Shown piece by piece: positions 5,585 to 35,685 of a stretch of DNA of 42,598 nt. Source of the stretch: a virus; the IMG/VR virus record IMGVR_UViG_3300007541_000002, positions 1-42,598 of that record; one strand, written 5' to 3'. The notes under the pieces were generated by a model. It made no database searches and had not been told where the DNA came from. It saw only the letters and a program-made list of their open reading frames with translations. Each line of letters begins with the position of its first letter. Position 1 is the stretch's first letter. Both the position numbers and the translations under genes were made by a program.

Positions 5585-6466
5585 GTGGACTCCATCATTG
5601 AACCCGCCATCTCTGAGACAGTAGACGAATACCACAAGTGGGCCATGGCTCTGTGGAAGGGGGAGGAGCCGGACATCGAGTCCTTGAAGGACCGCATGGT
5701 CAAGGTCCTCACCGTTTCGATGATGGCCGGCATGTCTACGGTGAAGGATGAGGACGAGGTCTTGGAGGTCGACAAGCACTCGGACCGGGTGAATCCCGTG
5801 TTCAAGGAAGCAGTCGAGGCACTGGCGAAGAAGGCCCCTACTCTGAGGATCATGAGCCCCAAGGGTCTCTCCGAGCGACTGAGACAAACCGCGTGGTACG
5901 TCTCCGGGGTTCTGAGCGCGAGCATACTGGAGAGGATCAGGGCCAGACTGGTGGAGGCCCGGGTGAACGGTCACTCGAGAGACTGGTTCACTCAGATGAT
6001 CTACGACGATGCGCAGACGTCGGCCGCTCACATCGAGACCGTGTTTCGTACCAACTCCGCCAGTGCTGCTGCTGCCGGCCGGTGGCAACAGTACACCGAC
6101 CCCGACGTGTCGGATCTGTTCTTCGGGTATAGGTACGTGTCGCAGGGCGACCACAGGTCTCGACCACTCCACAAGGCCATGAATGGATTCGCGGCTACCA
6201 AGGACGATCCGATCTGGAAACTGATTTGGGTTCCCAACGGATACAACTGTCGATGCAAGGTTAGACCAGTCCGGAAGAAGGACGCCATCTCCATCGGGTT
6301 GGTTGACGCTGAAGGCAGACCCCTGAACAGACGAGTCTTTGCTAACGAATTACAAAGGAAGATCGTAGCAGCAGCGGAAGACGGCGTCACCATAGGAATC
6401 GAAGGCAAGCCGAGCAGGTTTCCGGATGAAGGATTCCGTGGTAACGCCATGATGGACCTAGCGTAA
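5585..6466 (+). CDS. Head morphogenesis protein, Mu gpF / SPP1 gp7-like
   Basis: A 293-residue minor head protein. The C-terminal half holds the family signature: a His-x-x-Arg-Pro-x-His segment (DHRSRPLHKAMNGF), a DP-x-W segment, then NGYNCRCKVRPV. Proteins of this family sit at the portal vertex inside the head and are injected or aid assembly with the portal. The only usual start codon after the upstream TAA (5540-5542) is GTG 5585, but the preceding 14 codons read like coding sequence (TEQRLARLRIRG), so a non-canonical upstream start is possible. It is separated from the portal gene by about 8 kb (through the seam), longer than the usual Mu-like order. Confidence 0.85.
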   Translation: MDSIIEPAISETVDEYHKWAMALWKGEEPDIESLKDRMVKVLTVSMMAGMSTVKDEDEVLEVDKHSDRVNPVFKEAVEALAKKAPTLRIMSPKGLSERLRQTAWYVSGVLSASILERIRARLVEARVNGHSRDWFTQMIYDDAQTSAAHIETVFRTNSASAAAAGRWQQYTDPDVSDLFFGYRYVSQGDHRSRPLHKAMNGFAATKDDPIWKLIWVPNGYNCRCKVRPVRKKDAISIGLVDAEGRPLNRRVFANELQRKIVAAAEDGVTIGIEGKPSRFPDEGFRGNAMMDLA

Positions 6467-6861
6467 TGAAGAAGACCACTCTCGAACCAGTCGACGGATC
6501 TCGCTCTCGCCTTACCGGGGAAACCGGCGTCGAGGTCGAGGCTTCGCCTCGCTCCACCAAGCCCGTGAAGAAGAAGGGCGAAAGCCTCGACGACGGGGTC
6601 AAGGCCGCGATCGAGGCGTTCAACGCGCCCATCGCCAACGACATCGACAAGCCGGCGGCTACCGTGAATGAGAACCTCCGGGAACTCATCGAGAAGATCG
6701 AGAAGGTCCGCGACAACTACAACTACTGGCACAACACTCTCAGCCACGTGCAGAGGACCATGCTGATCGGCGCGCTGTACGCAGCGAAGGAGGCCCTTGG
6801 TGAGACCGACAACGGAGTTCCGATCTCGTTCCAGAGGTTCCTCGGCATTACCTTCCGGTGA
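6466..6861 (+). CDS. Hypothetical head-region protein
   Basis: A 131-residue protein starting at ATG 6466, one base overlapping the TAA of the gpF-like gene (TAATG). The N-terminal 45 residues are Lys/Ser/Glu-rich and probably disordered; the rest is helical (ENLRELIEKIEKVRDNY, then a Tyr/Trp/His segment and a final helix). It could be a scaffold-like or small head accessory protein. No family recognised. The frame just downstream of its stop also encodes a convincing helical stretch, discussed in the findings. Confidence 0.65.
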   Translation: MKKTTLEPVDGSRSRLTGETGVEVEASPRSTKPVKKKGESLDDGVKAAIEAFNAPIANDIDKPAATVNENLRELIEKIEKVRDNYNYWHNTLSHVQRTMLIGALYAAKEALGETDNGVPISFQRFLGITFR

Positions 6862-6950
6862 TCCGGTCTTTGAGGACCTCGTCCTCTCGTGGGTTGCAGA
6901 TGGTTGGACAGTCGAAGATTCCGTCAAGATCGCCCTGAAGGAGTACCTAC

Positions 6951-7898
6951 GTGCCACCCGTTCCAAACCGCGTCCCAGTCCAAGGGTCCAAGCCGATGTC
7001 CGTCAGCAAGACGGTCGGGCAATGGGCCGATCACCTCGTGGAACAGGCAAAGCAGAAGGCCGCAAAGAAGATCGGCGTGGGCGACGGGGACGAGATGTCG
7101 CTCAACGACCCCCTCTTCCCGCCAAAGCCACCCGCTCGTTCCTTGCCGGCCGCAAGTGACATCGAACTGCCTCCTCAGCGTCACGCCTTCGGCGAAGGTC
7201 CTCGCGAGGGGGAAGAATCCGATGACATGATCAGTTCGTTCTTCGACGACGAGGGAGACCGCCGCCGGCGAGAGGCCCGTGATTCCGAGAAGCGCAAGGA
7301 GAAGAAGACTGGTCAGCGTTCGAACCCGACCCAGTCGTACCGGTCGGTCGAGAGGGTCGCGTACTCGAGTCGGTCCTTCCAGATTGACCGGTACGTCGCT
7401 CCCCCCGGCATGGAGAACGTGGTCCGTCGTCTGAAGACCAAGGAAGGTGTCAGCAATCCCTACGCCGTCGCTTGGGGTATGTATGACCGGGACAAGCACA
7501 CCCATGACAACGTCATCGGTGGACTCTCCCGGATCGGCGTCCTCGAGGGAGCGCTCCACCGTTCCCTTCGCGTTCTCGACGCAGTGGCCGAGGGTCACTA
7601 CGGGGTGAGCAAGGAGGTCGTGTCGAGGCTTCACTCCGACGCCTTGGAGGACATCGAGCGTTCGTTCGACCGCGAGGACCCCCTCCGCGACGCGTGGAAG
7701 CACGTGCTCAATCAGGCCAAGAGCGAGGCGCTGTCCAAGGTCAGCCGTCACTCGGAACAGGGTCCGCCCGAGGTCGAGTCCGTCGAGGAACGAGAGCCGG
7801 AGTTTCCTCGAGACGAAATGCTCGAGGAGATGACCGGCAAGGGCAAGGGCCTCGACAAGTGCGAGGAGTACCGGGTCGGGTGGATCACCTTCCGTTAG
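6951..7898 (+). CDS. Hypothetical structural/virion protein
   Basis: A 315-residue protein starting at GTG 6951 with AAGGAG seven bases upstream; ATG 6996 is an alternative. The first 130 residues are charged and low in complexity. Around residues 150-180 there is a segment GMENVVRRLKTKEGVSNPYA followed by VAWGMYDRD, which I recognise as a short conserved element (V-x-x-L-x...NPYA-x-AW) recurring in phage structural and protease proteins. The C-terminal region is helical and acidic. The stop is TAG, so amber is a true stop in this genome. A role in the capsid is inferred from its place. Confidence 0.7.
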   Translation: MPPVPNRVPVQGSKPMSVSKTVGQWADHLVEQAKQKAAKKIGVGDGDEMSLNDPLFPPKPPARSLPAASDIELPPQRHAFGEGPREGEESDDMISSFFDDEGDRRRREARDSEKRKEKKTGQRSNPTQSYRSVERVAYSSRSFQIDRYVAPPGMENVVRRLKTKEGVSNPYAVAWGMYDRDKHTHDNVIGGLSRIGVLEGALHRSLRVLDAVAEGHYGVSKEVVSRLHSDALEDIERSFDREDPLRDAWKHVLNQAKSEALSKVSRHSEQGPPEVESVEEREPEFPRDEMLEEMTGKGKGLDKCEEYRVGWITFR

Positions 7899-7907
7899 GA
7901 GCAACAC

Positions 7908-8648
7908 GTGAGCGGATTCCTTTACCGGTACCGAAGCAACGAATCAGTGGATCGGCACATCGCGGCCTCGGGGCCTCACCCTCACACCAAGGCGGTGCAA
8001 GAGATTGCCGACATGTACGACCACGATCACGACGAAACCGATGACAGTGGTGATCGTCCCATCGGCATGGGTTGGCAGGACGAAATCAACAACCGAGCCA
8101 AGCAAGCCGGCGAAGCGTTGGCTCGACCCCAACTGCACCACCACACCGCGTTCCTCGAGGAGATGGCTGACAATGTCGTCGAACCCGAACACTGGGGCAA
8201 CGACTGGATGGATCAGGACACGTACGCCGCCGGCAACCACATCGCAAACCACGCTAGGCTCGCTCTCGGAATGGAGCCTCTTCCCGACCACTGGATGGAA
8301 GCCCGGTACCGGGACAACGGCGACGTTGATCGTCACGTGAACCCTGGCAACATCCGAGACTTCGGGGACGATCTTCTTCCGGGGTTTCACGGTCCCAAGT
8401 TCGGCCTCCCCAAGCGCGAGGTTTCCGGAGAAGGTGAGCCGACTCACGGTCAGGTCCCGCCCCCGAACACCGGCATGCGTAGCGACGGTCTTCGTGACGC
8501 CTTGGAGGAACTGCACGACCGGGGCAAGATTGATCTCTTCTCCCACATGGCTGACTTCTTGTCGGGTGTTGACGAGGACGAAGCCGGCGAACACGCAGAC
8601 ATTCACCGCATGGCGCACAAGTGGGCGCTTCGACAGGGGTACATCTGA
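7908..8648 (+). CDS. His-rich hypothetical protein
   Basis: A 246-residue protein with unusually many His, Asp and Asn residues, including HPHTKAV, YDHDHDET and HHHTAF, which could bind metal. It is predicted soluble and acidic, with helical segments. It starts at GTG 7908 ten bases after the preceding gene, with TAGGAGC upstream. Similar His/Asp/Glu-rich composition appears in the proteins flanking the portal (35686-41599), so this phage seems to carry a family of such virion-associated proteins. Function unknown. Confidence 0.65.
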   Translation: MSGFLYRYRSNESVDRHIAASGPHPHTKAVQEIADMYDHDHDETDDSGDRPIGMGWQDEINNRAKQAGEALARPQLHHHTAFLEEMADNVVEPEHWGNDWMDQDTYAAGNHIANHARLALGMEPLPDHWMEARYRDNGDVDRHVNPGNIRDFGDDLLPGFHGPKFGLPKREVSGEGEPTHGQVPPPNTGMRSDGLRDALEELHDRGKIDLFSHMADFLSGVDEDEAGEHADIHRMAHKWALRQGYI

Positions 8649-8656
8649 GAACAACC

Positions 8657-8920
8657 ATGGCCAACAACAACGAACACGACTTCTACGGTGAACTCGACAA
8701 CCTCGACTCCCAGATTCAGCGTTTCGCTGATCCGGACGAGCGTCGACGCGCCTTCCTCACCAACGTGGCTTCCGGGTCCCCGCAAGGTGACAAGAACATC
8801 GGGAAGATGAAGGGCAAGCCTCTCAAGAAGGCGGCGATGATGGCCGGAGCGCTTCAGTCGGGCCGGCCTCCGGCGATGGTGAAGCAGGGCGTCGAGAAGC
8901 GCATGGAGCGCGAGGGCTGA
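8657..8920 (+). CDS. Small basic hypothetical protein
   Basis: An 87-residue protein. The N-terminal half is acidic and helical (FYGELDNLDSQIQRF), the C-terminal half is strongly basic (KNIGKMKGKPLKKAAMMAG then KQGVEKRMER). ATG 8657 is preferred over an upstream start at 8621 that would lie inside the previous gene. It lies between the His-rich protein and the paralogous pair. Nucleic acid or capsid-interior binding is possible from its charge, but no family was recognised. Confidence 0.6.
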   Translation: MANNNEHDFYGELDNLDSQIQRFADPDERRRAFLTNVASGSPQGDKNIGKMKGKPLKKAAMMAGALQSGRPPAMVKQGVEKRMEREG

Positions 8921-8921
8921 A

Positions 8922-9269
8922 GTGGCCGCTAGTCCCAACTATCTTCTAGGGGTCGGCTTCTCGCCTTCTCAGTCGCCGGTTGGGACTAAGACCGTGGTGA
9001 CTCTCCTAATCACGGGAGCGTGGGTCACCATGTCTACCTCGGACGATAGTTGTGGCGTTCTCGTCCAATACGAACTGGAGGGAGCCGGACCTGCCGGCTC
9101 GACGGTGGCGGTGTCCATCGCGAACCCCAAGGGGGCGAACTTCTCCTCTTCCGTGCTATTGGCCGAGAAGGGTGCGGTCTACCTCCACAACGTGAGACCG
9201 TCGCAGGTGACCGTGGCTCGGGCGTCCGGAACCGGATTCCCGGTTGTGAACATGTTCATTTACAAGTGA
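8922..9269 (+). CDS. Small beta-rich structural protein, paralog A
   Basis: A 115-residue beta-rich protein starting at GTG 8922, one base after the preceding TGA. It shares with the next gene the pattern CGVLV-x(n)-GA(V/I)YLHNV-x-P and a final strand, so the two are tandem paralogs. Small beta proteins of this type among head genes are often decoration or head-fibre proteins. No motif pins down the function. Confidence 0.65.
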   Translation: MAASPNYLLGVGFSPSQSPVGTKTVVTLLITGAWVTMSTSDDSCGVLVQYELEGAGPAGSTVAVSIANPKGANFSSSVLLAEKGAVYLHNVRPSQVTVARASGTGFPVVNMFIYK

Positions 9270-9276
9270 GACAACC

Positions 9277-9606
9277 ATGGCGGGTAGCGTCAACATTCAA
9301 CTCGGTGCAGGTTCTTCACCGTCTCAGAAGGTGAAGAAGATCGGTACGGTCACTGGGATTACGGGTACCTACGTTCAACTGGAGAACGACGTAAATGCCT
9401 GTGGCGTTCTCGTAATCCACGACTCGGGCTCCGGAACCGGTCTCTTCGTGTGTGTCAGTGACTCGGCTCCCGCGAACGACCTCAACTCGGTGGACGTCGG
9501 GCTCACTGGCGCGATCTACCTCCACAACGTGTACCCCGCTCGCGTGTGGGTTAAGCGCAGCACCGGGGCCTCGTCCATCACGGCCAAGTACATCACCTAT
9601 GTTTGA
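9277..9606 (+). CDS. Small beta-rich structural protein, paralog B
   Basis: A 109-residue beta-rich protein and tandem paralog of the preceding gene (shared CGVLV, TGAIYLHNVYPARVWV). It starts at ATG 9277 and ends inside the start of the protease/scaffold gene, overlapping it by eight bases. The duplication suggests two related surface or decoration subunits. Function inferred only from composition and neighbours. Confidence 0.65.
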   Translation: MAGSVNIQLGAGSSPSQKVKKIGTVTGITGTYVQLENDVNACGVLVIHDSGSGTGLFVCVSDSAPANDLNSVDVGLTGAIYLHNVYPARVWVKRSTGASSITAKYITYV

Positions 9607-10900
9607 CATCAAAGAGAACAACGACGGCACCGTCGACGTCATGAACGTCCCGGTGTTCAAGGCACACCACGATCGCAAGTACCTCTGCGACGAGGCTTGG
9701 CTCGACCGTTGCGTCGCAGACTTCCTGCATCAGAAGATCGACTCGATCGAAGTCGCGCAGGGGAACGCGAAGTACGCGATGCTTCCCAGTCTCACGATCG
9801 GCCACACCCCCGAATCCGCCGATGCTCCTGAGCCTCCCCGGGTCGGTTTCGTCGACAATCTTCGCCGAGTGGGGAAGGTACTGTACGCCGACTTCGTCGG
9901 CATTGCGAAGCATGCGTGGGAACAAATCAAACGCGGCGACTTTCCGTACAGATCTGCAGAAGTGATACCTTCAAAGCACCGGCTCACCAACGTGAGTCTC
10001 CTCGGTGGCAGGTACCCCCACTTCTCGCTTCCCGTGATGCGGTTCAATGCTCGCGGTTCTGAAATCGTTCGGTACATGTACACAGAGGACTCGAACACGA
10101 TGGACACCGACATCAACGAACTCGCTCAGAAGATCGCGCCACTGGTGGCGCAGATGCTCGCCGAAGGTGAGGCCAACGCCGTCAACAACGACATGGCTTC
10201 ATCCGGCATGGACGGCGAGGGAATGGCTACCGCCGGCGGGGTCGACACCGACCCGACTGCAGAGGGCGACGTCGAGGAAGGTTCCTCCGAGGAGGAGAAG
10301 GGGGACGGGCAGGAGTCCTACAGGTCCCGCTTCCGTCACCCCTACCGCCGAGTCCGGTACGAGACCGAACACACCTCCAAGGGCGCAGACCATGGGGATG
10401 ACCAGTTCAAGCCACCGAGTGACGCCGAGAGCGTCGACTTCAGCACTGAGGAACAAGGCGTGAGCAGCACCACCAAGAACTCGACCCAGTCGCCGGCGTC
10501 CCGCTATCAGGCGGAGATCGCTTCTCTCCGTTCGCAACTCGCAGATCTGCAGCGTCACAACGTTCGTGAGGCTCAGGCCGCGAAGCGGATGATGCTCACC
10601 GCTAAGTGCCGCGAGATCTCTTCCCTCGGTTACGCCATCGGCGACCGGGAGCAGATCGACCGTCACGTCGGCCGCATGATGAGCATGCGGTCGGAGGAAG
10701 TGCGCGACTACGTCGAAGACGTCCTCAAGCGCAGCCCGAAGGTCGAGATGGTCTCTCGGCATGGTGTCAGTGACTACATCGAGCGCCCCGGCCGCTCGCT
10801 CAGTGAGAACGAGCGTTACGTCAGTGAGAACGCTGATCAGGTTCAGCGTCTCGGTCTCGACCGGTCCGTCCTCGACCTCTCCGACGTTCTCAGCGGCTGA
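9599..10900 (+). CDS. Head maturation protease / scaffold, Mu gpI-like
   Basis: A 433-residue protein placed directly upstream of the decoration and capsid genes, as in Mu-like phages. Residues 1-160 resemble the gpI protease domain, including the segment GFVDNLRRVGKVLYADF, the RS motif in FPYRSAEVIPS and the strand LTNVSLLGGRYPHFSL. An acidic, low-complexity linker (about residues 195-290) is followed by a coiled coil (about residues 300-345, SRYQAEIASLRSQLADLQRH), as expected if the C-terminal part is scaffold cleaved after assembly. ATG 9599 overlaps the previous gene by eight bases; the much longer upstream opening is in the shadow of that gene. Confidence 0.8.
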   Translation: MFDIKENNDGTVDVMNVPVFKAHHDRKYLCDEAWLDRCVADFLHQKIDSIEVAQGNAKYAMLPSLTIGHTPESADAPEPPRVGFVDNLRRVGKVLYADFVGIAKHAWEQIKRGDFPYRSAEVIPSKHRLTNVSLLGGRYPHFSLPVMRFNARGSEIVRYMYTEDSNTMDTDINELAQKIAPLVAQMLAEGEANAVNNDMASSGMDGEGMATAGGVDTDPTAEGDVEEGSSEEEKGDGQESYRSRFRHPYRRVRYETEHTSKGADHGDDQFKPPSDAESVDFSTEEQGVSSTTKNSTQSPASRYQAEIASLRSQLADLQRHNVREAQAAKRMMLTAKCREISSLGYAIGDREQIDRHVGRMMSMRSEEVRDYVEDVLKRSPKVEMVSRHGVSDYIERPGRSLSENERYVSENADQVQRLGLDRSVLDLSDVLSG

Positions 10901-10919
10901 TCACTGAAGGAACACCACC

Positions 10920-11330
10920 ATGGCAAATCTCACTCAGAACACTTCCGTTTCCGGTCGTCTCGACGGACGCACCGCAGAGTGCCTCATCGCGAACACCGTC
11001 ACTCTCTACGAGGGTGAACTCGTCTGCATCAACGCGACGGGTTTCGCGGTCAAGGCTGTCGATACCGCCAACTTCAAGTTCTACGGCATCGCCATCAAGG
11101 GCGGCACCGGCGACGGTACCACGGTCACTTGCGTCGTGGAACGGCGCGGCACCCGTTGGCTCCCCAAGGCGTCGACTGCTCAGGCCGACATGGGGAAACT
11201 CGCCTACGTCGTTGATTCCGGAACGGTGGGGGTGTCCGCGACCACCAACATCGGCAACGTCGGCCGCATCGTCGGCATCAACACCGCCAACAACCTCGTC
11301 GAAGTCGATCTCGAGGATCGCGTCGCCTAA
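10920..11330 (+). CDS. Capsid decoration/stabilising protein, DUF2190-like
   Basis: A 136-residue beta-rich protein with AAGGA upstream of ATG 10920. The pattern of an N-terminal 'A-x-x-Q-x-T' strand, a Gly-Glu-Leu-Val turn after about residue 40 and a final 'GRIVGINTANNLVEVDL' strand fits the small capsid decoration proteins that precede the major capsid gene. It would bind the outside of the expanded head. High expression is likely given its place with the capsid gene. Confidence 0.75.
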   Translation: MANLTQNTSVSGRLDGRTAECLIANTVTLYEGELVCINATGFAVKAVDTANFKFYGIAIKGGTGDGTTVTCVVERRGTRWLPKASTAQADMGKLAYVVDSGTVGVSATTNIGNVGRIVGINTANNLVEVDLEDRVA

Positions 11331-11347
11331 TCGGAGATTGAGAACAC

Positions 11348-12442
11348 ATGCCCGTCCTCACACGCAATCGTCAGATCACTCGGAAGGAAGTTCGCGGTCT
11401 CTTCGCGAAGTCCTTCATCACCCAGTCCCGCGACGTTCTGTACCCGCTCTTCTGCGAGACGGTGGACACGTACTCCGAGCGCGAGTTCTTCGCTACCCTC
11501 GGCACCGTGCCGCAGGTTCAGCAGATCACCGATGAACTCGAGGTGCCGTTCAGCGAACTGAACGAGTACACGTTCGACTTCACCAACAAACTGTACAAGA
11601 GCCTCGTGCGCCTGAAGCGCGGTCTCGTGGACTTCGACCAGACCGGTCAGTCGCGTACGCTCCTTCACTCGATGGCCGGCCGCGTCGTGAACTTCCCGGA
11701 CAAGTTGGCGATGACTCGCCTCCGGAACGGAACGGCGGCTCCCTGCATCACCGGGGCGAACTTCTTCTCGACGTCTCACGCACTGGGCGGTCTCGCTCCT
11801 GCGAATCAGTCGAACCTCATCACCGGCAACACTGCAACCACGTCGTGGACCGGCACCACCCCGCGACCGGACACCGCCGAGAAGGTCATCAACGACCTCG
11901 ACCGTGCTCTCGTCACGATGCTCGGTTGGCAGGACGATCAGGGCGAGCCCTTCTATCAGAAGATCCGCCCCGAGGATCTCGTCGTGGTCTGCTCCCCGCT
12001 CCTCTACAGCACGATGAAGTTGGCTCTCTCGGCCAAGTTCATCAAGCAGACCGACAACGTCTACGAGGGCTTCGTCGGCGGCGTCTACTCGAGCAATTAC
12101 CTCCCGATCTCGGGCGCCGAGGCTGCAGACTGGTACCTGATGAACGTCGGCCACGTCAACCGGCCGCTCGTCTACAGCCGTTTCCGGATGCGCACCGACT
12201 CGGAGATGCAGGACACTCTCTCGCAGTTCCAGTCGGCCGGCTCGCCGTTCAACATCACGATGGAGGACCTCAAGAACCTCTCGTCGGTCGAGATCCTCAC
12301 CAATCTCGGCGAGCGCGGAGGCATGAACGCCGACAGCCACGTCATCCTCCACGAGGAGTTCCTCATGGCGGCACGTTGGCGTGGCGAGGTGTCCTACGGC
12401 ATCCCGTGGACCGCGATCAAGGTCGACAACGCCGCCTCGTAA
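11348..12442 (+). CDS. Major capsid protein, Mu gpT-like
   Basis: A 364-residue major head subunit. It has features of the gpT family: an N-terminal helix-rich arm (residues 1-60), a region around residues 120-145 with CITGANFFSTSHA, resembling the family's FF-S-x-x-H motif, and a late segment with a conserved-looking EFLMAARWRGEVSYG. It self-assembles into the icosahedral shell with an HK97-type fold. It is preceded by protease/scaffold and decoration genes and followed by a strong hairpin terminator, which would give the capsid mRNA its own end. Confidence 0.88.
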   Translation: MPVLTRNRQITRKEVRGLFAKSFITQSRDVLYPLFCETVDTYSEREFFATLGTVPQVQQITDELEVPFSELNEYTFDFTNKLYKSLVRLKRGLVDFDQTGQSRTLLHSMAGRVVNFPDKLAMTRLRNGTAAPCITGANFFSTSHALGGLAPANQSNLITGNTATTSWTGTTPRPDTAEKVINDLDRALVTMLGWQDDQGEPFYQKIRPEDLVVVCSPLLYSTMKLALSAKFIKQTDNVYEGFVGGVYSSNYLPISGAEAADWYLMNVGHVNRPLVYSRFRMRTDSEMQDTLSQFQSAGSPFNITMEDLKNLSSVEILTNLGERGGMNADSHVILHEEFLMAARWRGEVSYGIPWTAIKVDNAAS

Positions 12443-12460
12443 CGCTCTACTCCCCTCTGC

Positions 12461-12494
12461 ACGAAGGCTCCATGAGAAATCATGGGGCCTTCGT
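12461..12494 (+). terminator. Hairpin terminator after the capsid gene
   Basis: A 15-bp stem (12461-12475 with 12480-12494), perfect except for one G:T pair, closes on a GAAA tetraloop. It lies 18 bases after the capsid stop and is followed by CGTATTTA. This is a typical intrinsic terminator or processing site and would lower expression of the neck and tail genes relative to capsid. Confidence 0.8.
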
Positions 12495-12509
12495 CGTATT
12501 TAGAATGCC

Positions 12510-13016
12510 ATGCCCTACGTTTACGCCGACAAGACCGAGATTCTGAAGAGATTCGACTCGCGCGTAGTGGTGCAACTCACCAACGACGATGAACAGGTCG
12601 ACTCTAACGATCTGAACAACATCAACGAATCCGTGTTGACCACGGCCGAGAACGACGCCGCGCAGACCGTAGACAACTTCCTCCGGTACGTCTACGAGGT
12701 GCCACTGGTAGGCGCCGACCTCACGCCTGAGATCAAGGGTATCACCGCCGCCCTCACGTGGTGCCTCCTGTGGGAGAGAAGGGGCGAGGAGTCCGAGCAG
12801 GTCACCGCTCTTCGCAAGCGCATGTTCGAGCGCCTCGAGGCAATGGGCAAGCAGGACGCCGTCGAGGTCCGAGGGAAGAGGTCGAGTCAGTCGATGGCCA
12901 TCCGGTCCGTCAAGGGGAAGGTCAGGACTATCTTCGACCAGTCCGGGTACTTCGACGGGCTCAGGTTCCCGGGTGTGAGAACGCTTCCCGCTGACAATGA
13001 GGGCACCGGTGTATAA
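12510..13016 (+). CDS. Neck/head-tail connector protein, Mu gp36-like (DUF1320)
   Basis: A 168-residue protein with the DUF1320 layout: an N-terminal segment PYVYADKTEILKRF, a helix with Asp/Asn-rich loop, then VDNFLRYVYEVPL near residue 55 and a helix pair with CLLWERRGEE. In Mu-like phages gp36 follows the capsid gene and joins head and tail. ATG 12510 has no clear Shine-Dalgarno sequence; the gene begins right after the terminator hairpin. Placement and motif agree. Confidence 0.8.
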   Translation: MPYVYADKTEILKRFDSRVVVQLTNDDEQVDSNDLNNINESVLTTAENDAAQTVDNFLRYVYEVPLVGADLTPEIKGITAALTWCLLWERRGEESEQVTALRKRMFERLEAMGKQDAVEVRGKRSSQSMAIRSVKGKVRTIFDQSGYFDGLRFPGVRTLPADNEGTGV

Positions 13017-13020
13017 GACG

Positions 13021-13115
13021 AGCCACGGGAAGGCCCCTCCGGGGCCGCTCGCTTCTTCGGCCGGCTTCTGGTCCTCCCGGGCCGAAGAACGCCTCGGAGG
13101 GTCCTTCCCGTGGCT
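13021..13115 (+). promoter_or_regulatory. Long nested stem-loop covering the next gene's start
   Basis: A 21-bp inverted repeat with one mismatch (13021-13041 with 13095-13115) encloses a second perfect 10-bp stem (13053-13062 with 13080-13089). The right arm of the outer stem contains both GGAGG (13096-13100) and the GTG start (13110) of the gpG-like gene. The left arm can instead form a short local hairpin GGCCCC-TCC-GGGGCC (13032-13046). These are mutually exclusive structures, so the region could regulate translation of the downstream gene or act as a terminator. Confidence 0.7.
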
Positions 13116-13706
13116 GTGACGATCACCGTTGACCTAGGCCGTGCGTTCGAGAGGACGAAGATCAGGGGAGTCCTGAAGCAGATGGCTATCCTGTTGCAGG
13201 AGCAGACCATCGACAGGATCGAGCAGTCCGGGGACGATGAGATCAACTTCAAGCCCTTGCACCGGGACCGGCCGAACGGAAGCAGGGACCGGCCGCTCTA
13301 CGACAACGGTAGCCACCTCATCGACTCAATCACTCACGGGGTCGACGCAGACGGCGCTTGGGTGGGCTCGACCTTCACCGGCGGGAGAGTGCACCAGTTC
13401 GGTACCGTTGGGGCAAACAGCCCCGACGTGGGGGCCGGCACTCTTCCGACGATCGTTCCGGTGCGAGCGAAGGCACTATTCATCCCCCTCACTCCTCGCG
13501 CTCAGAAGAGTATCCGAGTTCCCAGTGGACCAAAGGTATTTAGGAAGGGATCTCGTAAACGCAAGGGATCGAATGTGTTGTTCGACCTGCAACCCGGCGT
13601 AGACTTCATATTCTTGAAGAAGGTGGACATTCCACCCAGACCCTTCCTCCGTGTCTCTCGTAGGAACGCGGAAGAGATCGCTGAACTGTTCGAAGGAGAC
13701 GATTAA
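13110..13706 (+). CDS. Virion morphogenesis/tail completion protein, Mu gpG-like
   Basis: A 198-residue protein of the phage virion morphogenesis family: after an N-terminal helix, residues 50-75 contain RDRPLYDNGSHLIDSI, matching the family's 'P-L-x-x-x-G-x-L-x-x-S' element, followed by a GRVHQFG motif near residue 92 and a terminal PPRPFLRVS motif. It likely closes or joins the tail after assembly. Translation starts at GTG 13110 inside the right arm of a 21-bp stem, so expression may be structurally controlled. Confidence 0.85.
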   Translation: MAVTITVDLGRAFERTKIRGVLKQMAILLQEQTIDRIEQSGDDEINFKPLHRDRPNGSRDRPLYDNGSHLIDSITHGVDADGAWVGSTFTGGRVHQFGTVGANSPDVGAGTLPTIVPVRAKALFIPLTPRAQKSIRVPSGPKVFRKGSRKRKGSNVLFDLQPGVDFIFLKKVDIPPRPFLRVSRRNAEEIAELFEGDD

Positions 13707-14158
13707 TGGCGTTCATTGCGGGACACTACAACGCGACTTGGAACGGCGCGAACATCGGTACCACCGAGGGCGGGTTCCGTCTGCAGATGACCAACCACCA
13801 CGAGACCGTTCTGATCGACGACTACGGCGACGCACTCGCCGATGGAGTTCAGCGTGGTGTCGATTACCGAATCACCCTCGAATACGTCGAGTACGACCTC
13901 ATCAAGAACGCGATGAAGGGTCAGGCCGGCACGTTCGGAGCGATGTCGAACGTCGGTAAGTTCCTGTCTACTCTCGCCGCTCCGCTCGTGCTCACCGCTC
14001 AGGCCGGCACATCGGCGGCAGGTCAGATCGCCAGTCTCACCGCGTCGAAGGCGATCATCGTCTCGGACACCGAGGTGCTGCTTGCCAACAGTCTCCGCAA
14101 GGGGCCGCTCACCTTCCTGCTGATTCCCACGGCGGGAGTTCACTTCACCACTACCTGA
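13706..14158 (+). CDS. Major tail tube protein
   Basis: A 150-residue beta-rich protein immediately after the tail completion protein (ATG 13706 overlaps the TAA as TAATG). Segments GHYNATWNGANIGTTEGGF near the N-terminus and later alternating strands are typical of tail tube monomers, and the gene order (tail completion, tube, chaperone pair, tape measure) supports it. It should polymerise in hexameric rings along the tape measure. The family is assigned by context and composition. Confidence 0.72.
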   Translation: MAFIAGHYNATWNGANIGTTEGGFRLQMTNHHETVLIDDYGDALADGVQRGVDYRITLEYVEYDLIKNAMKGQAGTFGAMSNVGKFLSTLAAPLVLTAQAGTSAAGQIASLTASKAIIVSDTEVLLANSLRKGPLTFLLIPTAGVHFTTT

Positions 14159-25709: not shown

Positions 25710-26466
25710 GGACCTTCTCCGCCGGCAGTTGAAGGAGGCGCAGGAGCGCCGCAGCGCCGGCAACATCGCGTACGTGAAGGGTGACGTCTCCCTCCGCGTG
25801 ATCCCGTTCAAGGATGGCGACTCGATGAACTTCGCCCGGAAGTTCGTCCAGTGGCGTCCGCGTGGCGAGGGCCGGCCCGTCGCTCACCGTGGCAACTGGG
25901 ACAAGCCCGACCTGTTCGAGTCCGTGAAGCGAGAGACTCCGGATTTCCCGTGGAGGGAGACCAGTGCGTACCTCGTCAATGCGATCGACGTCTCCGGCAA
26001 CGAGCGCGAACTCCGCGTGTGGCAGTTGCCGGTCAGCGTGTACGAGGCGATCGCCGAGATCCTGCTCGATGACGATTACGACCATGCTCTCGACCCCAAG
26101 TCCGGCGTCCCGTTCAAGATCAAGCGGACCGGAACCGGACTCGCTACCAAGTATTCCGTGATGGTCGGGCAGAAGGCCGTCGACGTCTCGAAGTTCGTCT
26201 CGGCTGCTCGCGACCCCATGGACGCGGTCAGTGACCCGGGGCTCGAGACTCAGGCGAGCGCTCTCGGCGTGGATCTCGGTGACTTCGACATCGAAGCGGA
26301 CGAGCCGGCCCCGGTTGCCGAGAAGAAGAGCAAGAAGCCGGCTCCGGTCGCCGAAGACGACGATGAGGACGAGGACGAGGACGAACTGTTCCCGGCGCCG
26401 GCGAAGAAGTCGTCGACCGGCAAGGCTCCCTCGATCCGTGACCTGCTGAAGGGGGGCAAGAAGTGA
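25699..26466 (+). CDS. Single-stranded DNA-binding protein
   Basis: A 255-residue protein of gp32-like type: a mixed beta domain (residues 1-165) with FARKFVQWRPRGEGRPVAHR, WQLPVSVYEAI and a late VPFKIKRTGTGL that could be the OB-type binding face, followed by an acidic tail with DDDEDEDEDELF and a basic end (DLLKGGKK). Acidic C-termini of single-strand-binding proteins recruit polymerase, helicase and nucleases. It overlaps purZ by four bases. Placement among replication genes is decisive; the family match is by composition. Confidence 0.75.
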   Translation: MIDKDLLRRQLKEAQERRSAGNIAYVKGDVSLRVIPFKDGDSMNFARKFVQWRPRGEGRPVAHRGNWDKPDLFESVKRETPDFPWRETSAYLVNAIDVSGNERELRVWQLPVSVYEAIAEILLDDDYDHALDPKSGVPFKIKRTGTGLATKYSVMVGQKAVDVSKFVSAARDPMDAVSDPGLETQASALGVDLGDFDIEADEPAPVAEKKSKKPAPVAEDDDEDEDEDELFPAPAKKSSTGKAPSIRDLLKGGKK

Positions 26467-27476
26467 TCGACCAAGGAGCGATTTGCGTGATCGACTCACA
26501 GTGGGGTTCCTGTGGGAAGGGCAAGGTCGAGGGCGCGATCTACCAACGCTACCCCGGCATTCAGGTCGGCGTGTCCGACAACATGCCGAACGCCGGACAC
26601 ACCGTCTATTCCGAGGACGGCGAGAAGCACGTACTCAAGAGTCTGCCAGTGGCTTGCGCGTTGGGCAGGACTGGCGTACTCGGCCCCCACTCCGCGTTCT
26701 ACCCTTCGGCCATGGGGCTCGAGTGGGAGAAGATCTCGAAGTACGGTTCTCTCCTTTACATCGACAAACTCGCCTCACTGGTGCAGACTGCCGACAACAT
26801 GAAGGAGTTCAGCCTCGTCACTTCGATCGCTTCAACTGGTCAGGGCGGCGGTAGTTCGTCGATCCGGAAGATGGAGAGGCTTGGGCTCGGTACGTTGGCC
26901 GCGAGTCTCGAACTCGAGGCCAAGAACATCTTCGTGATGCGGACCAACGTCTACTGTCAGATGATCGCGTCCCGGGCTCCGATCCTCCTCGAGGGATCTC
27001 AGGGATTCGACCTCTCACTCAATCACGGGCACTCGTACCCCCACGTCACCAGTCGCGACGTCACCCCCAACCGGATGCTCGATAACGCCGGTCTCAGCCC
27101 CTTCGACTGCAAGGAAGTCATCGGGGTGGTGCGCACTTTCCCGATTCGCGTGGGTAACTATGGCGAGTTCTCGAGCGGACCCTGCTACGAGGATCAGCGG
27201 GAGATGTCGTGGTCTGAGGTCTCCGTCATCGCCGGCAAGACGGTGAGTGAGCGCACGACTGTCACCAACCGGTTGCGCCGCGTGTTCTCCTTCTCCGACA
27301 TGCAGTTCACCAAGTTCGTTCGGACGTGCCGGCCGACCCGGTTGTTCGTCACGTTTGGCGACTACCTTCCGGATAAGGAACTGGGCCAGTTCATCGACCG
27401 CGTCGAGGCAATCGCCGACGCCAAGGTGATGGCAGTGTCTCACGGACCCAAGAACGAGGATACCGAATGGCTCTGA
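26463..27476 (+). CDS. purZ: PurZ, 2-amino-adenylosuccinate synthase (Z-genome enzyme)
   Basis: A 337-residue PurA-family enzyme with a GTG start overlapping the previous TGA. The N-terminal motif is Q-W-G-S-C-G-K-G-K (residues 13-21): Ser16 stands where PurA has the catalytic Asp of GDEGKG. Other family motifs are intact: NAGHT (43-47), EGSQGFDLSLNHGHSYP and VTSRDVTPNR. This substitution is the known PurZ signature. PurZ converts dGMP plus L-aspartate to 2-amino-succino-dAMP (dSMP), which host PurB cleaves to dZMP. Its place beside the polymerase and dNTP enzymes supports a Z genome. It could still be a diverged PurA, but the Ser argues strongly against that. Confidence 0.93.
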   Translation: MIDQGAICVIDSQWGSCGKGKVEGAIYQRYPGIQVGVSDNMPNAGHTVYSEDGEKHVLKSLPVACALGRTGVLGPHSAFYPSAMGLEWEKISKYGSLLYIDKLASLVQTADNMKEFSLVTSIASTGQGGGSSSIRKMERLGLGTLAASLELEAKNIFVMRTNVYCQMIASRAPILLEGSQGFDLSLNHGHSYPHVTSRDVTPNRMLDNAGLSPFDCKEVIGVVRTFPIRVGNYGEFSSGPCYEDQREMSWSEVSVIAGKTVSERTTVTNRLRRVFSFSDMQFTKFVRTCRPTRLFVTFGDYLPDKELGQFIDRVEAIADAKVMAVSHGPKNEDTEWL

Positions 27477-28377: not shown

Positions 28378-29593
28378 CTGTCCTCCCTCTCTCGAGCCCA
28401 TCATCGTCGCCGCTCTCGCCACCGACCCGGATCTGCTAGCACAAGTCCGGGTCGTGGTGTCTTCGGCCATGTTCTCCGATCCGGTCAATGCGACCATCGC
28501 CGAATCCTTGCTCCGGTTGTTCGACAAGTATGGGTCCGTCCCCAGTCTTGCGGTCTTGTCTGAGTCGGTGTCGGAGTCCGGGAGCAGGGACTCGTACGAG
28601 GCATCCGAGAGGGTGATGGGGTTGTCCCCGGTCAAGGATGTCGCTTATGTCAGGGACCGCATCGTCGGATTCTCCCAGTGGAAGCAGATAGATGAGGCGT
28701 TCGCCGACGCCGACTCGATCTCCCCCGCCGAACTGGCCGAGAAGATCTTGGGCGCCAGTCGGATCGGCGCGACTCTGAGCGACTCCTACCTTACCCTCGA
28801 GGGTGACGTCGGGGCGGATGATCTTCGCCGGCCGGTTGTCCCCACCCCTTGGCCTTACGTCAACGACTTGCTCCGGGGAGGACCCGAGAAGGGAGACCTA
28901 TGCGCCATCCTGTCGTTCATCAACGTCGGCAAGACCACGCTACTGGTGAACGTCGCCGCTGCAGCGATGGCCGTGGGTAAGAGCGTCGTGTACTTCACCT
29001 TCGAGGACGGCGAGAGGAAGATCCGCCGGCGGTTCCTGCAGTGCATCACCGGAATGACCGTCGAGCAGTTGATCAAGGACCCGGTAAAGGCCGCGAAGAA
29101 CCGGGATAGGTTCGTGTCCAAGACGGGCTCCGCTCTCGCGATCAAGAGTCTACTGGTGCGGCAGTCGACTGTGCGGGACGCTTGGGACTTCGTGAAGTCC
29201 TACGAGTCGAACACTGGCAGGAAGGTCGATCTCGTTATCACTGACTACGCCGACCGTTTCCGGGCCTCCACCGCCAACCGGGAGCCTAGGCACGAGTGGA
29301 GATCGATCGCCGAAGATTGCAAGGCCATGGCCATGGATCTCGACGTAGTCCACTGGACCGCCAGTCAGGTGCAGCGCAGTCGCGCCGGCGAGGAAGTGGT
29401 GGACCTCGAGCACGTCGCCGAAAGCATGGGCAAGGTCGAGGGAGCCGACTTAGTCCTAGGGGTGGGGCAGAAGAAGGACGAGGTCAGGACGGGGCGTTTG
29501 GTGATGACCACGGCCAAGGTGAGGGACGCCGAGAAGGGGTCTCAGATCTCACTGGTGGCAGACTTCGAGGTTCAGAGAGTTGCGGAGCAGTGA
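28355..29593 (+). CDS. Replicative DNA helicase, DnaB-like
   Basis: A 412-residue RecA-fold helicase. Residues 1-150 resemble the DnaB N-terminal domain; the ATPase domain has Walker A SFINVGKTTLL (residues about 186-196, with Ser where the family's first Gly is), a strand VVYFTFEDGE, and Walker B LVITDYADRF. An S-x-Q-x-x-R segment (ASQVQRSR) near residue 335 is the arginine-finger-like region. It unwinds the replication fork and works with the adjacent primase. It starts at ATG 28355 inside the dUTPase gene (23-base overlap). Confidence 0.88.
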   Translation: MDLVRRADCPPSLEPIIVAALATDPDLLAQVRVVVSSAMFSDPVNATIAESLLRLFDKYGSVPSLAVLSESVSESGSRDSYEASERVMGLSPVKDVAYVRDRIVGFSQWKQIDEAFADADSISPAELAEKILGASRIGATLSDSYLTLEGDVGADDLRRPVVPTPWPYVNDLLRGGPEKGDLCAILSFINVGKTTLLVNVAAAAMAVGKSVVYFTFEDGERKIRRRFLQCITGMTVEQLIKDPVKAAKNRDRFVSKTGSALAIKSLLVRQSTVRDAWDFVKSYESNTGRKVDLVITDYADRFRASTANREPRHEWRSIAEDCKAMAMDLDVVHWTASQVQRSRAGEEVVDLEHVAESMGKVEGADLVLGVGQKKDEVRTGRLVMTTAKVRDAEKGSQISLVADFEVQRVAEQ

Positions 29594-30446
29594 CGTACTC
29601 GACTCCCTCTTCTCCCAGTCTCCCCTGATACGGGGGGACCAGATGGTCTTCACGTGTCCGGGTTGTGACAAGCCCGAGCACCTCTACGTCCACCGGTCCA
29701 AGGCCCTGTACATCTGCTTTCGCTGTGGTCTTCGCGGCGGTCTGCTGAAGGATCTGGTGGGGAGGAAGTCGGAGTGGCGTAGGTTGTGCCGGCTGAGTGA
29801 GGCCCGGGAAGGCCCCTCCGAGGCCGAGGTCGACTTGGGTGGCTGCTTGTACCCCCTGACCGGAGAGGCGCCTCCGAGAGGCACTCCCGTGGCCGGAGCG
29901 ACCCGCTACTGCCTACGCCGGGGCCTGAACCAGTCTCAGATCAGTCGGTACATGGTTTCGGCAAAGCCCTTCGATGGTCGCGTATGGTTCCCGTACTGGA
30001 GCAGGGGGCGCCTAACGTGGGCTATCGGAAGGTCGATGGGTGCGGTGGAGCCGAAGACCCTGGACATGGGCTCGGATAAGCCCTTGTTCGGTCTGCACGT
30101 GTACCGACCAGTCGGTGACGTGTTCTTGGTCGAGGGGGTATTTGACCACTTCGCCACACCCGGAAGTCTCGCCCTGTGTGGGTCGACCATCAGCCACACC
30201 CAACTGGCAGAGTTGGTATCTCTCGAGTTATCCCGGGTGTTCGTACTCTTGGACCCGGACGCCGAGGAGAAGGCGCTGCAGGTCGCCGAATCCTGCAGGT
30301 CGGCCGGCTTGAAGGCTTACCCGGTGCTCCTGCGTGGAAATGACAAGGACCCGGCCGACTTGGGCCGAGTCCTCGTCACGGAACTGGTCAAGGTGGTACG
30401 GGAGGGAGCCCCCGTCAGACCACAAGCAGTCCGTTTGCACGTCTGA
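29580..30446 (+). CDS. DNA primase, DnaG-like (zinc finger plus TOPRIM)
   Basis: A 288-residue primase beginning at TTG 29580, overlapping the helicase by 14 bases. The zinc finger is C26-x2-C29 and C46-x2-C49. The TOPRIM domain is visible as VFLVEGVFDHF (Glu) and VFVLLDPDAEEKA (D-x-D), which bind magnesium. A C-terminal helicase-interaction domain is not apparent, so it is a small primase. It converges with the leftward early cluster; its last 32 bases overlap the end of the sigma-like gene on the other strand. Confidence 0.85.
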   Translation: MRSSDVLDSLFSQSPLIRGDQMVFTCPGCDKPEHLYVHRSKALYICFRCGLRGGLLKDLVGRKSEWRRLCRLSEAREGPSEAEVDLGGCLYPLTGEAPPRGTPVAGATRYCLRRGLNQSQISRYMVSAKPFDGRVWFPYWSRGRLTWAIGRSMGAVEPKTLDMGSDKPLFGLHVYRPVGDVFLVEGVFDHFATPGSLALCGSTISHTQLAELVSLELSRVFVLLDPDAEEKALQVAESCRSAGLKAYPVLLRGNDKDPADLGRVLVTELVKVVREGAPVRPQAVRLHV

Positions 30447-32796: not shown

Positions 32797-33300
32797 ATGG
32801 ACAAGACAGGTCTTGTAAGAAACATCCCGTGGGAAGTCATCCGTGCCGAGTTCGTTCAGTCCGAAGGTCCGGTAACCATCCAAGAACTGGCCAAGAAGTA
32901 CGAGGTGCACCCGGCTACGATGTACCAACGGTGTGGTCGTGAGAAGTGGCACGATCGACGCGCCGAGTTCTGGCGCGACGTGGTGGAAGACGCCCGGAAG
33001 CAACTGGCCGACGAGTTCGCTGCTTCGAAGGTGAGGAGAGCCCGGGCGGTGTCTCGTTCGATCGATTCATGGCTCGAGCGACTCGAGGGCAAGGAAGACG
33101 TCGCGGTGAACGAACTGCTCCAGTTGGTTAGACTGGAGAAGGAACTACTCGAGGTGAGAGATGGCAGCGAAACGCAAGACGAGTTCGAGATCCACGTCGC
33201 CGCCATCCGCACCCGAATCGGTCGAGTCAACGACAGCCTCAAGGACGTCGTCGACAGCGGCCTCCGCCGGCTCGGAGTCTCGGACGGTACGCAGGGCTAG
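32797..33300 (+). CDS. Terminase small subunit
   Basis: A 167-residue protein with an N-terminal helix-turn-helix (VTIQELAKKYEVHPATMYQRC, residues about 25-45) that would bind the packaging site, followed by a long helical region and a charged end. ATG 32797 is preferred to the longer upstream frame from 32737, which lies within the promoter/operator region. Its 3' end overlaps the terminase large gene by 140 bases in another frame. Starts the late packaging/portal operon. Confidence 0.8.
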   Translation: MDKTGLVRNIPWEVIRAEFVQSEGPVTIQELAKKYEVHPATMYQRCGREKWHDRRAEFWRDVVEDARKQLADEFAASKVRRARAVSRSIDSWLERLEGKEDVAVNELLQLVRLEKELLEVRDGSETQDEFEIHVAAIRTRIGRVNDSLKDVVDSGLRRLGVSDGTQG

Positions 33301-35026
33301 GAAGGCGCTCAACCGGCGCGACATCACCCTCGACCTCGCCTTGAATCACCACCGGAACGTCCGTGGTGAGCCGATGCAGTTCGAGGACTTCTTCTATATG
33401 CTAGACATCCTAGCAGATCCCAGTCCTCACAAGGTGATCAAGAGCGCGGTGCAGACGGGAAAGACCGAGGGCTTCATCTGCTCGGCGTTGGCAGACTGTC
33501 TGTGTGGGTTGAGCGTGTTCTACGTGTTGCCGACTCAGGACACGAGAAACATCTTCGTACCCAACCGAATCGACCGGTGCATCTCTCAGGTGCCGATTTA
33601 CCAACACATGAAGAAGACGAGCATCGGCAACGCCGACAGTGTCTTGCTCAAGCACTTGGGAAAGGGTACCATCCGATTCGGCGCCAGTCACGCCATGGTC
33701 GAGTTTAAGGAGTTTCCGGCCGACGTAGTGTACGTGGACGAGTTCGACCAGTGCGAGCCTCACGGCGTGGCCTTTGCGATGGACCGAACCAAGGGATCCC
33801 CGTTCCGGTTCAGGACGGTACTGGGTAATCCGACCCTCTCCGGTAACGAGAGCCGGCACAACCTCGACTGGGAGTACCAACATTCCGACGCCAAGAAGAT
33901 CCACTACCAGTGTCGGGAGTGTGGGTTGCTTCAGCCACTCGACTGGTGGCACAACGTCGTGAAGCCGGTCTACTCGGGGTCCGTGATCTCCGATTACGAG
34001 CCTAGGATCATGGTCGACGGCAAGGTGGAAGCCTGTTGCCTCAAGTGCGGGGCCATGATCGACCGCGTGTCCGACGTCAAGGGTTGGAGACCGACCGGAG
34101 ATCCCAACAGCCCCGTGAGCGGCTATCAGATCAGTCGCATGAACAGCCTGATGGATGACTTCGACGGTCTGTACTTCTCCTTCCGGAAGGCAGTCGGTAA
34201 CGAGTTGGCTATGCAGGTGTTCGTCAACTCTGACCTCGGAGAGTGTTACGAGGGAGGAACCGGGAACAGGATAAACGACCGCCTGATCAGTTCGTGCGTC
34301 GAGCAGTACCAGTTACCGGTGCCGGGTACGTTGAGAGGCCCCTGTACGATGGGGGTTGACGTCGGCGCCACCTTGGACGTCAGGATCTCCGACTTCGTCG
34401 TAGACAACGGACGCGTACGTCGACGGCTCGTCTTCGCCGGCAAACTGCGCACGGTGGAGGAGGTCATCGAACTAGGGAGGAACTACCGGGTCGCCGTCGC
34501 GGTGATCGACGCCATGCCTGAGCAGAGGCTGAGTCTCGACTTCCAAGCCCGGGCTCCGTTCCGGGTGTGGAGGTGCCAGTACAAGGCTTCGGAAGGAAAG
34601 AATGTCCGCAGTCTGACTTGGAACGGAAACGAGGGATCAGGAGATCAGCGGTACGTTACGATCGATCGAACCGAAGCCATGGACCACGTGTTTCAGTCGT
34701 ACGTGAGGGGGGACGTGATCGAGCCTCCCAACTTCGGCAATCTCCTCGACGGTCGGTACATCACCGAGATGACTTCACCCGTAAGGGCGCAAGACGGAGA
34801 TGGTCGCTTCTATTGGATCAAGTCCGTCGATCACCAGTACCACGCGAACGTCTACGACTGGATCGCGTCACAGGACCCGATGGGCGGATTCTTTACGAAC
34901 GCGGACAGCATCCTGAGGGGGCAGATCGTTCAAAGCCCGTCTTCAGACGATTTCGGCGCTTCCCGCGTAGTTACGAGGATGAAGCGTAGCAAGCGCGTCA
35001 ATATCTGGGACACCATCACAGGGTGA
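33161..35026 (+). CDS. Terminase large subunit (packaging ATPase/nuclease)
   Basis: A 621-residue protein. ATPase part: Walker A-like KSAVQTGKTEG (residues about 93-103), Walker B VVYVDEFD (near residue 190). A four-cysteine zinc finger follows (C-x2-C in CRECG, C-x2-C in CLKCG). The nuclease starts with MGVDVGATLD (Asp of the RNase H-like fold, near residue 398). This is a GpA-like terminase, which packages DNA and cuts it. ATG 33161 with GAGGTGAGAG upstream lies within the small subunit gene; the first 50 residues are Ser/Thr/Arg-rich, likely because they share DNA with the other frame. Confidence 0.92.
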   Translation: MAAKRKTSSRSTSPPSAPESVESTTASRTSSTAASAGSESRTVRRARKALNRRDITLDLALNHHRNVRGEPMQFEDFFYMLDILADPSPHKVIKSAVQTGKTEGFICSALADCLCGLSVFYVLPTQDTRNIFVPNRIDRCISQVPIYQHMKKTSIGNADSVLLKHLGKGTIRFGASHAMVEFKEFPADVVYVDEFDQCEPHGVAFAMDRTKGSPFRFRTVLGNPTLSGNESRHNLDWEYQHSDAKKIHYQCRECGLLQPLDWWHNVVKPVYSGSVISDYEPRIMVDGKVEACCLKCGAMIDRVSDVKGWRPTGDPNSPVSGYQISRMNSLMDDFDGLYFSFRKAVGNELAMQVFVNSDLGECYEGGTGNRINDRLISSCVEQYQLPVPGTLRGPCTMGVDVGATLDVRISDFVVDNGRVRRRLVFAGKLRTVEEVIELGRNYRVAVAVIDAMPEQRLSLDFQARAPFRVWRCQYKASEGKNVRSLTWNGNEGSGDQRYVTIDRTEAMDHVFQSYVRGDVIEPPNFGNLLDGRYITEMTSPVRAQDGDGRFYWIKSVDHQYHANVYDWIASQDPMGGFFTNADSILRGQIVQSPSSDDFGASRVVTRMKRSKRVNIWDTITG

Positions 35027-35029
35027 AAC

Positions 35030-35683
35030 ATGCTTAAGAGAATCATCGAACAGTACGTTGCTCCTCTCGCAGCCGCTGCCGCCGGAGGAGCCGGAGGAGC
35101 CGGGGGTGCTGCCGGGGGTGCCGCCGGTGCCGCCGGTGCCTCCGGTGCCTCAACCGCCGGCGAGGGGAAGGCTGTCGCGGACATGGCTAAGTCCGGGGGT
35201 GGTGGCTCGATCCCCAATCCGGGCGACGTGATCGGAGGGGGAATCAGGTCGGCGGGTAGGGCAGCAGCCGCCCCCTTCAACATTCTTTCGGCCATTCCTC
35301 AGTCAGCCGGCGCCTCGTACCGTGCGGACACCGGCGAGAAGTACTCAGGTCACAACTCCGGCAGGGAACGGGCTCGGTCGATCATGAGCATGCTCAGCGA
35401 CGCGGCAAACATGTCGAGGAACGCCGCCGTGGAGCAGCGCGGTGATCCCGACTTCAAGGACTTCCACCCGGGAGACGTCGCCATGGCTAAGATGGCCGAA
35501 GACCACTACGAGGAGTGGGGTCACACCCTCAGCCCGGAGGACGATGCTCGAGCGCGGAAGATGATCGAGGGCCTCCACAACACGTACGGGGGTCTTCACA
35601 ACTTCGACGGTCGGGGCCGGCGCGTCGAACACTACACGTCGGTGGGTCATCGGTACCGGGCTCTTCTCGATCGACTGAAGTAA
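35030..35683 (+). CDS. Gly/Ala-rich protein of unknown function
   Basis: A 217-residue protein starting three bases after the terminase. Residues 10-45 are a low-complexity run of Ala and Gly, resembling a flexible collagen-like or elastic spacer. The rest is charged with His/Asp-rich helices (HPGDVAMAKMAEDHYEEWGH). Composition is similar to the His/Asp-rich proteins nearby. It could be a virion-interior protein; no family recognised. Confidence 0.6.
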   Translation: MLKRIIEQYVAPLAAAAAGGAGGAGGAAGGAAGAAGASGASTAGEGKAVADMAKSGGGGSIPNPGDVIGGGIRSAGRAAAAPFNILSAIPQSAGASYRADTGEKYSGHNSGRERARSIMSMLSDAANMSRNAAVEQRGDPDFKDFHPGDVAMAKMAEDHYEEWGHTLSPEDDARARKMIEGLHNTYGGLHNFDGRGRRVEHYTSVGHRYRALLDRLK

Positions 35684-35685
35684 AC

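Follow-up and report, generated by a model that had tools for sequence, protein, structure and literature searches.

A conserved, very stable hairpin over the start codon of a gpG-like gene is a candidate translational gate in a small phage clade and has a diverged copy in the primase gene

The DNA stretch analysed here, called the window throughout, comprises the 42,598 bases of an IMG/VR virus record. A 95-base hairpin is located between two of its virion-assembly genes, the head-tail adaptor gene and a downstream gpG-like/neck gene, and a second, diverged copy of the same element is found within the DNA primase gene. The features discussed below are the following:

12510..13016, + strand: head-tail adaptor gene (phrog_195, E 1.5e-14; 75-83% identity in three aligned relatives)
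13014-13016, + strand: adaptor stop codon TAA, ending 4 nt 5' of the hairpin
13021..13045, + strand: left (5') arm of the main stem
13032..13046, + strand: local competing hairpin GGCCCC-TCC-GGGGCC, seen in the window only
13053..13062, + strand: left arm of the inner 10-bp stem, based on sequence and covariation
13071..13078, + strand: invariant apical-loop segment GTCCTCCC (= GUCCUCCC), the same in five of five phages
13080..13089, + strand: right arm of the inner 10-bp stem, based on sequence and covariation
13091..13115, + strand: right (3') arm of the main stem, holding the Shine-Dalgarno (SD) sequence and the start codon
13096..13100, + strand: SD sequence GGAGG of the gpG-like gene, 9 nt 5' of the GTG and kept in five of five phages
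13110..13112, + strand: GTG with which the gpG-like gene starts, base-paired close to the foot of the main stem
13110..13706, + strand: gpG-like gene (tail completion or Neck1; phrog_26, E 6.5e-16)
29580..30446, + strand: DNA primase gene holding the second copy (phrog_47, E 8.5e-32)
29799..29893, + strand: diverged second copy, located in the primase linker that joins zinc-finger and core

The two arms of the main stem (13021-13045 and 13091-13115) comprise 25 nt each, are 92% complementary and rank at the top of 19 inverted repeats in the 42.6 kb; the second-strongest inverted repeat of the window has 22 nt at 77%. The fold of positions 13001-13135 is predicted at -83.7 kcal/mol, compared to -57.1 +/- 3.7 kcal/mol in dinucleotide shuffles (z -7.3; reached in 0 of 200). 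A preliminary description of the locus had proposed an outer 21-bp stem with a single mismatch, which hides both the SD sequence and the GTG and encloses a second, perfect 10-bp stem. This architecture was recovered in full: the mismatch is C13034 opposite T13102, the SD sequence and the GTG are both situated in the 3' arm, and the inner stem pairs 13053-13062 with 13080-13089. The start codon is further supported by an N-terminal MAV at the gpG GTG in four homologues. No known RNA family reached the Rfam gathering score in the window; two minus-strand matches (P35 and DUF3800-IV; E 1.8 and 2.4) score far under that threshold. A tRNA or tmRNA was not found in the window, nor was a close DNA match among the INPHARED phages.

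The predicted cost of opening positions -18 to +5 at the gpG start is 37.8 kcal/mol, compared to 4.3-13.8 kcal/mol at 24 other predicted starts of the window. If the mRNA up to 13026-13030 is occupied by a ribosome at the adaptor stop codon, the start codon alone is freed for 3.6-9.3 kcal/mol (3.6 kcal/mol with cover to 13028), whereas the SD sequence and the start codon together still require 19-25 kcal/mol. Hence the GUG, but not the SD sequence, could be exposed by a ribosome that terminates there. The helicase of the ribosome acts at about the eleventh base from the first base of the P-site codon. With the stop codon in the A site, the first base of the stem is this eleventh base, so that ribosomes translating the upstream gene would get as far as the stem and not need to melt it.

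To compare the locus between phages, protein and DNA scans of IMG/VR were used, which yielded four more distinct phages with a readable adaptor/gpG junction (L005, L006, L011 and L022; L007 is identical to L006 and L015 to L011, and each pair was counted once). Including the window, the comparison set comprises five phages, all of them from one small clade. The hairpin is found at the same junction in all five, where the stem begins at a distance of exactly 4 nt from the adaptor stop and has both the SD sequence and the GTG in its 3' arm. It is also carried by every contig obtained in the search with the major head protein. Between phages, identity is 82-95% in the outer arms and 75-100% in the apical loop, whereas it is only 31-53% at the fourfold-degenerate sites of the adaptor gene in the same phages. 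Sixteen of the 25 main-stem pairs are free of any variation across the five. Around the adaptor gene of the distant homologues L121-L123, no comparable spaced inverted repeat was found; the L123 record has a weak model match (18 bits, E 0.03) away from the adaptor gene. Pattern matches in L009, L010, L012-L014, L016, L018, L019, L021, L023 and L044-L046 were set aside as chance, a homologous element not being shown, and a search of genome_contigs found no head-protein relatives. A mobile palindromic (MITE-like) element was rejected as well: the flanking genes and the insertion point are the same in five of five phages, no empty sites were found and, besides the fixed site of the hairpin, the second copy is located at the same codons in three primases.

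Pairing is preserved throughout the structure. Across the five phages, 123 of 125 cells of the main stem are paired, with 11 G.U, 1 A.C and 1 C.U, and the inner stem keeps its pairing through several double changes without conservation of sequence; for the inner-stem count, a one-base gap of the window was shifted by hand to beside the inner stem. In the unmodified alignment, 95.8% of the cells of the whole structure are paired, a value reached in 0 of 500 shuffles, and the covariation score is reached in 3 of 500. Sliding the partners by one column brings a sharp drop. The earlier claim of a structured RNA over the gpG start is backed by these data together with the conservation in five phages. 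Covariation in relatives, whose absence the preliminary description had named as one half of its own refutation test, is found in the five phages. Template switching, on the other hand, can homogenise the arms of inverted repeats and keep them complementary (PMC8604942), so that covariation or complementarity alone is no proof of selection. The conservation of the aligned sequences between phages is free of this weakness. On the mRNA strand, G.U pairs outnumber A.C mismatches (17 vs 3 cells; 9 vs 3 column pairs, p = 0.07 by columns), and because of this excess, selection on an RNA of the mRNA strand appears modestly favoured.

Other parts of the preliminary description found less support. It had noted that the left arm can instead form GGCCCC-TCC-GGGGCC, and had taken such mutually exclusive structures as a hallmark of translational control. 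The competing hairpin is indeed present at 13032-13046 in the window, where it is predicted to arise as a transient of the growing chain, but it is absent from the relatives: the same stretch in L005, L006, L011 and L022 makes other, weaker local folds. With the competing fold confined to the window, the hallmark is lost, and a two-state RNA switch of the riboswitch or attenuator type, which needs two conserved exclusive structures, is not supported. An intrinsic terminator, also suggested earlier, was discarded because no G+C-rich hairpin followed by a T run is present on the + strand in 12400-13800. A recombination site, likewise suggested earlier, or a protein-binding site in the DNA is made modestly less likely by the bias of the G.U pairs towards one strand.

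The hairpin and positions 29799-29893 of the primase gene are identical at 61 of 95 positions without gaps (genome mean 25.8, sd 4.3; next best place 44), with 22 of 25 matches in the left arm and 19 of 25 in the right. Synonymous shuffles of the window primase never reached the hairpin-match score (0 of 500). Scores from the covariance model are 44.9 bits for the window copy and 13.1 bits for that of L048. In L048, which may be the same phage as L022 from the same sample, the homologous stretch at the same codons is clear (0 of 200 synonymous shuffles); in L011 it is weak, since 22 of 200 shuffles match the score against its own hairpin. At the level of sequence similarity, descent of the hairpin and the primase copy from a shared sequence is demonstrated. 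The element is absent from the distant primases L051-L057. By eye, L051 has a similar length at the position of the element, and the primase copy is therefore not insertion-like.

Between the window and L048, no other stretch of 32 codons in the primase gene is as conserved at synonymous sites as the element (fourfold sites 11/14 vs 29/82, p = 0.003), while synonymous change is not reduced in the element between the window and L011 (6/12 vs 42/86). A constraint at the nucleotide level is thus suggested for the primase element in one pair. The primase copies do not fold better than synonymous shuffles. As the primase copy is unable to gate a start in the same way, hiding a start codon is perhaps not the only job of the element. 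An in-frame GTG preceded by AGAGG is found in the primase element (29862-29893) and could start a primase without its zinc domain. As a second internal start, this GTG was rejected: it is missing in L011 and hence not conserved. Antisense pairing of the primase mRNA with the hairpin was rejected likewise, as it brings no gain over the separate folds in two of three pairs and 5 kcal/mol in the window.

Several known systems resemble the gpG hairpin in part. The replicase operator of phage MS2 is a translational operator hairpin that contains the start codon and has a sequence-specific core. The present hairpin likewise combines an enclosed SD sequence and start codon with sequence-specific positions; it differs in its much longer stem, its second copy inside a coding gene and a protein ligand that is only putative. 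Ribosome termination structures (RTSs), stable structures right after a stop codon, reduced re-initiation in a synthetic operon (PMC7518266). A stable mRNA structure just past the stop is also seen here (4 nt in five phages; z -7.3), with an intergenic gap of >25 nt, and insulation against re-initiation would be expected. In contrast to RTSs, which are generic and without shared sequence, the present hairpin is conserved in sequence, far more stable and holds the SD sequence and start codon of the next gene. In adhE and lambda cIII, the ribosome binding site (RBS) is hidden in a structure until RNase III cuts (PMC5371410). The main stem of ~25 bp provides about two helical turns of double-stranded RNA over the RBS, long enough for RNase III, but the positions of the SD sequence and start codon in the stem mean that some cuts would inactivate the gene, and cleavage is only putative here. 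The hairpin ahead of gene IX in phage f1 prevents translation that is not coupled, and coupling was lost once the upstream stop was placed well before the hairpin (PMC12548453). The f1 gene VII-IX junction thus shares with the present one a long intercistronic hairpin that silences a downstream phage gene in the absence of coupling (PMC12548453). The f1 upstream gene, however, normally runs into its hairpin, whereas the stop precedes the hairpin in five of five phages here.

We put the chances at about even that the hairpin acts as a cis-acting mRNA gate on translation of the gpG-like (neck/tail-completion) gene. By the predicted energies, the conserved main stem of ~25 bp and the inner stem, enclosing the SD sequence and the GUG, make de novo initiation very costly. 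Ribosomes ending the adaptor gene would halt at the foot of the stem and be insulated from the next gene; insulation is preferred to simple coupling because a stop before the stem resembles the uncoupled state of f1. Synthesis of the gpG-like product would then be low or controlled and confined to times when the stem is open. The least certain step is a putative opener that would read the invariant core GCCACGGGAAGG/CCUUCCCGUGGC; candidates are RNA-binding proteins of the phage or its host and nucleases specific for double-stranded RNA such as RNase III. A factor that reads sequence is proposed because the stem spacer is non-coding and yet invariant, and because of the primase copy. The core shared with the primase gene suggests that the same putative factor may act there too. 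It is rather doubtful that one structured, sequence-specific element is used twice, as the gpG gate and inside the primase gene, with a single trans-acting factor coordinating replication and assembly.

A site for mRNA processing or stability is an unlikely alternative. The stem would be cut by RNase III or block exonucleases, the head and neck/tail messages would differ in stability, and effects on the gpG start would be secondary. A continuous main stem of ~25 bp with an inner stem right between head and neck genes in all five phages fits such a site, as does the precedent of RBSs hidden until cleavage in adhE and lambda cIII (PMC5371410). It leaves unexplained, however, 12 bp that are invariant in sequence and not merely in pairing and, judged from the geometry, a cut between bp 7 and 15 would detach the SD sequence (bp 16-20) from the start codon (bp 4-6), turning the gene off rather than on. 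Translational coupling, in which adaptor stop and gpG start are held close in space by the stem and the ribosome, on terminating, opens the foot of the stem and starts again at the GUG, would account for the fixed stem-foot positions of stop and start in five of five phages and agrees with the mere 3.6 kcal/mol left for the start codon alone at cover to 13028. Coupling is nonetheless improbable, given that the SD sequence remains shut (19-25 kcal/mol with the start codon at cover to 13026-13030), that structure directly after a stop lowers re-initiation (PMC7518266) and that coupling in f1 was abolished by moving the upstream stop well before the hairpin (PMC12548453).

The invariant sequence of the palindromic arms could also reflect a DNA site present twice per genome, bound by a DNA-binding, recombination, partition or packaging protein, with the hairpin at the start as a by-product of the palindrome. 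The same orientation of the second copy in a coding gene and its reduced synonymous change between the window and L048 point in this direction, but the excess of G.U over A.C on the mRNA strand (17 vs 3 cells), the covariation of the inner stem without sequence conservation and the presence of the SD sequence and start codon within the stem in five of five phages make a DNA site quite improbable. Very little weight is given to a by-product without present function, in which part of the primase gene was duplicated into the gap between the adaptor and gpG-like genes and template switching then improved the palindrome. Such an origin would explain the homology to primase coding sequence, and template switching is known to homogenise the arms of inverted repeats (PMC8604942), but the arms are conserved between phages far beyond the fourfold sites, and the place, the spacing and the layout of SD sequence and start codon are the same in five phages.

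The proposed gate on gpG translation bears on a general demand of phage late operons, in which a single message has to supply head, adaptor and neck proteins at widely differing levels. That a hairpin of such stability stays over a start codon while nearby silent sites have become scrambled makes it a clear candidate for dosage control in this clade. A shared trans-acting regulator can be tested for directly, given the copy in the primase gene.

Some further observations concern the records and the genome as a whole. The contigs L022 and L008 end or begin shortly 3' of the gpG hairpin, and L047 and L050 have their first base within the left arm of the primase element or directly past it; assembly may have been interrupted at these four points by strong hairpins or repeats. 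A gene for a PurZ-like adenylosuccinate synthetase (26463-27476; phrog_1211, E 1e-57) adjoins the dUTPase, DnaB helicase and primase genes, and a 2-aminoadenine (Z) genome is possible from its presence. The terminase and portal genes are located near the right end of the record (33161-41033) and the head genes near its left end (5585-13706), the arrangement that a cut through a circularly permuted genome would give. Directly behind the portal gene, a match to a ParB C-terminal-domain family (40068-41033; phrog_2579, E 3e-44) marks a candidate DNA-binding protein.
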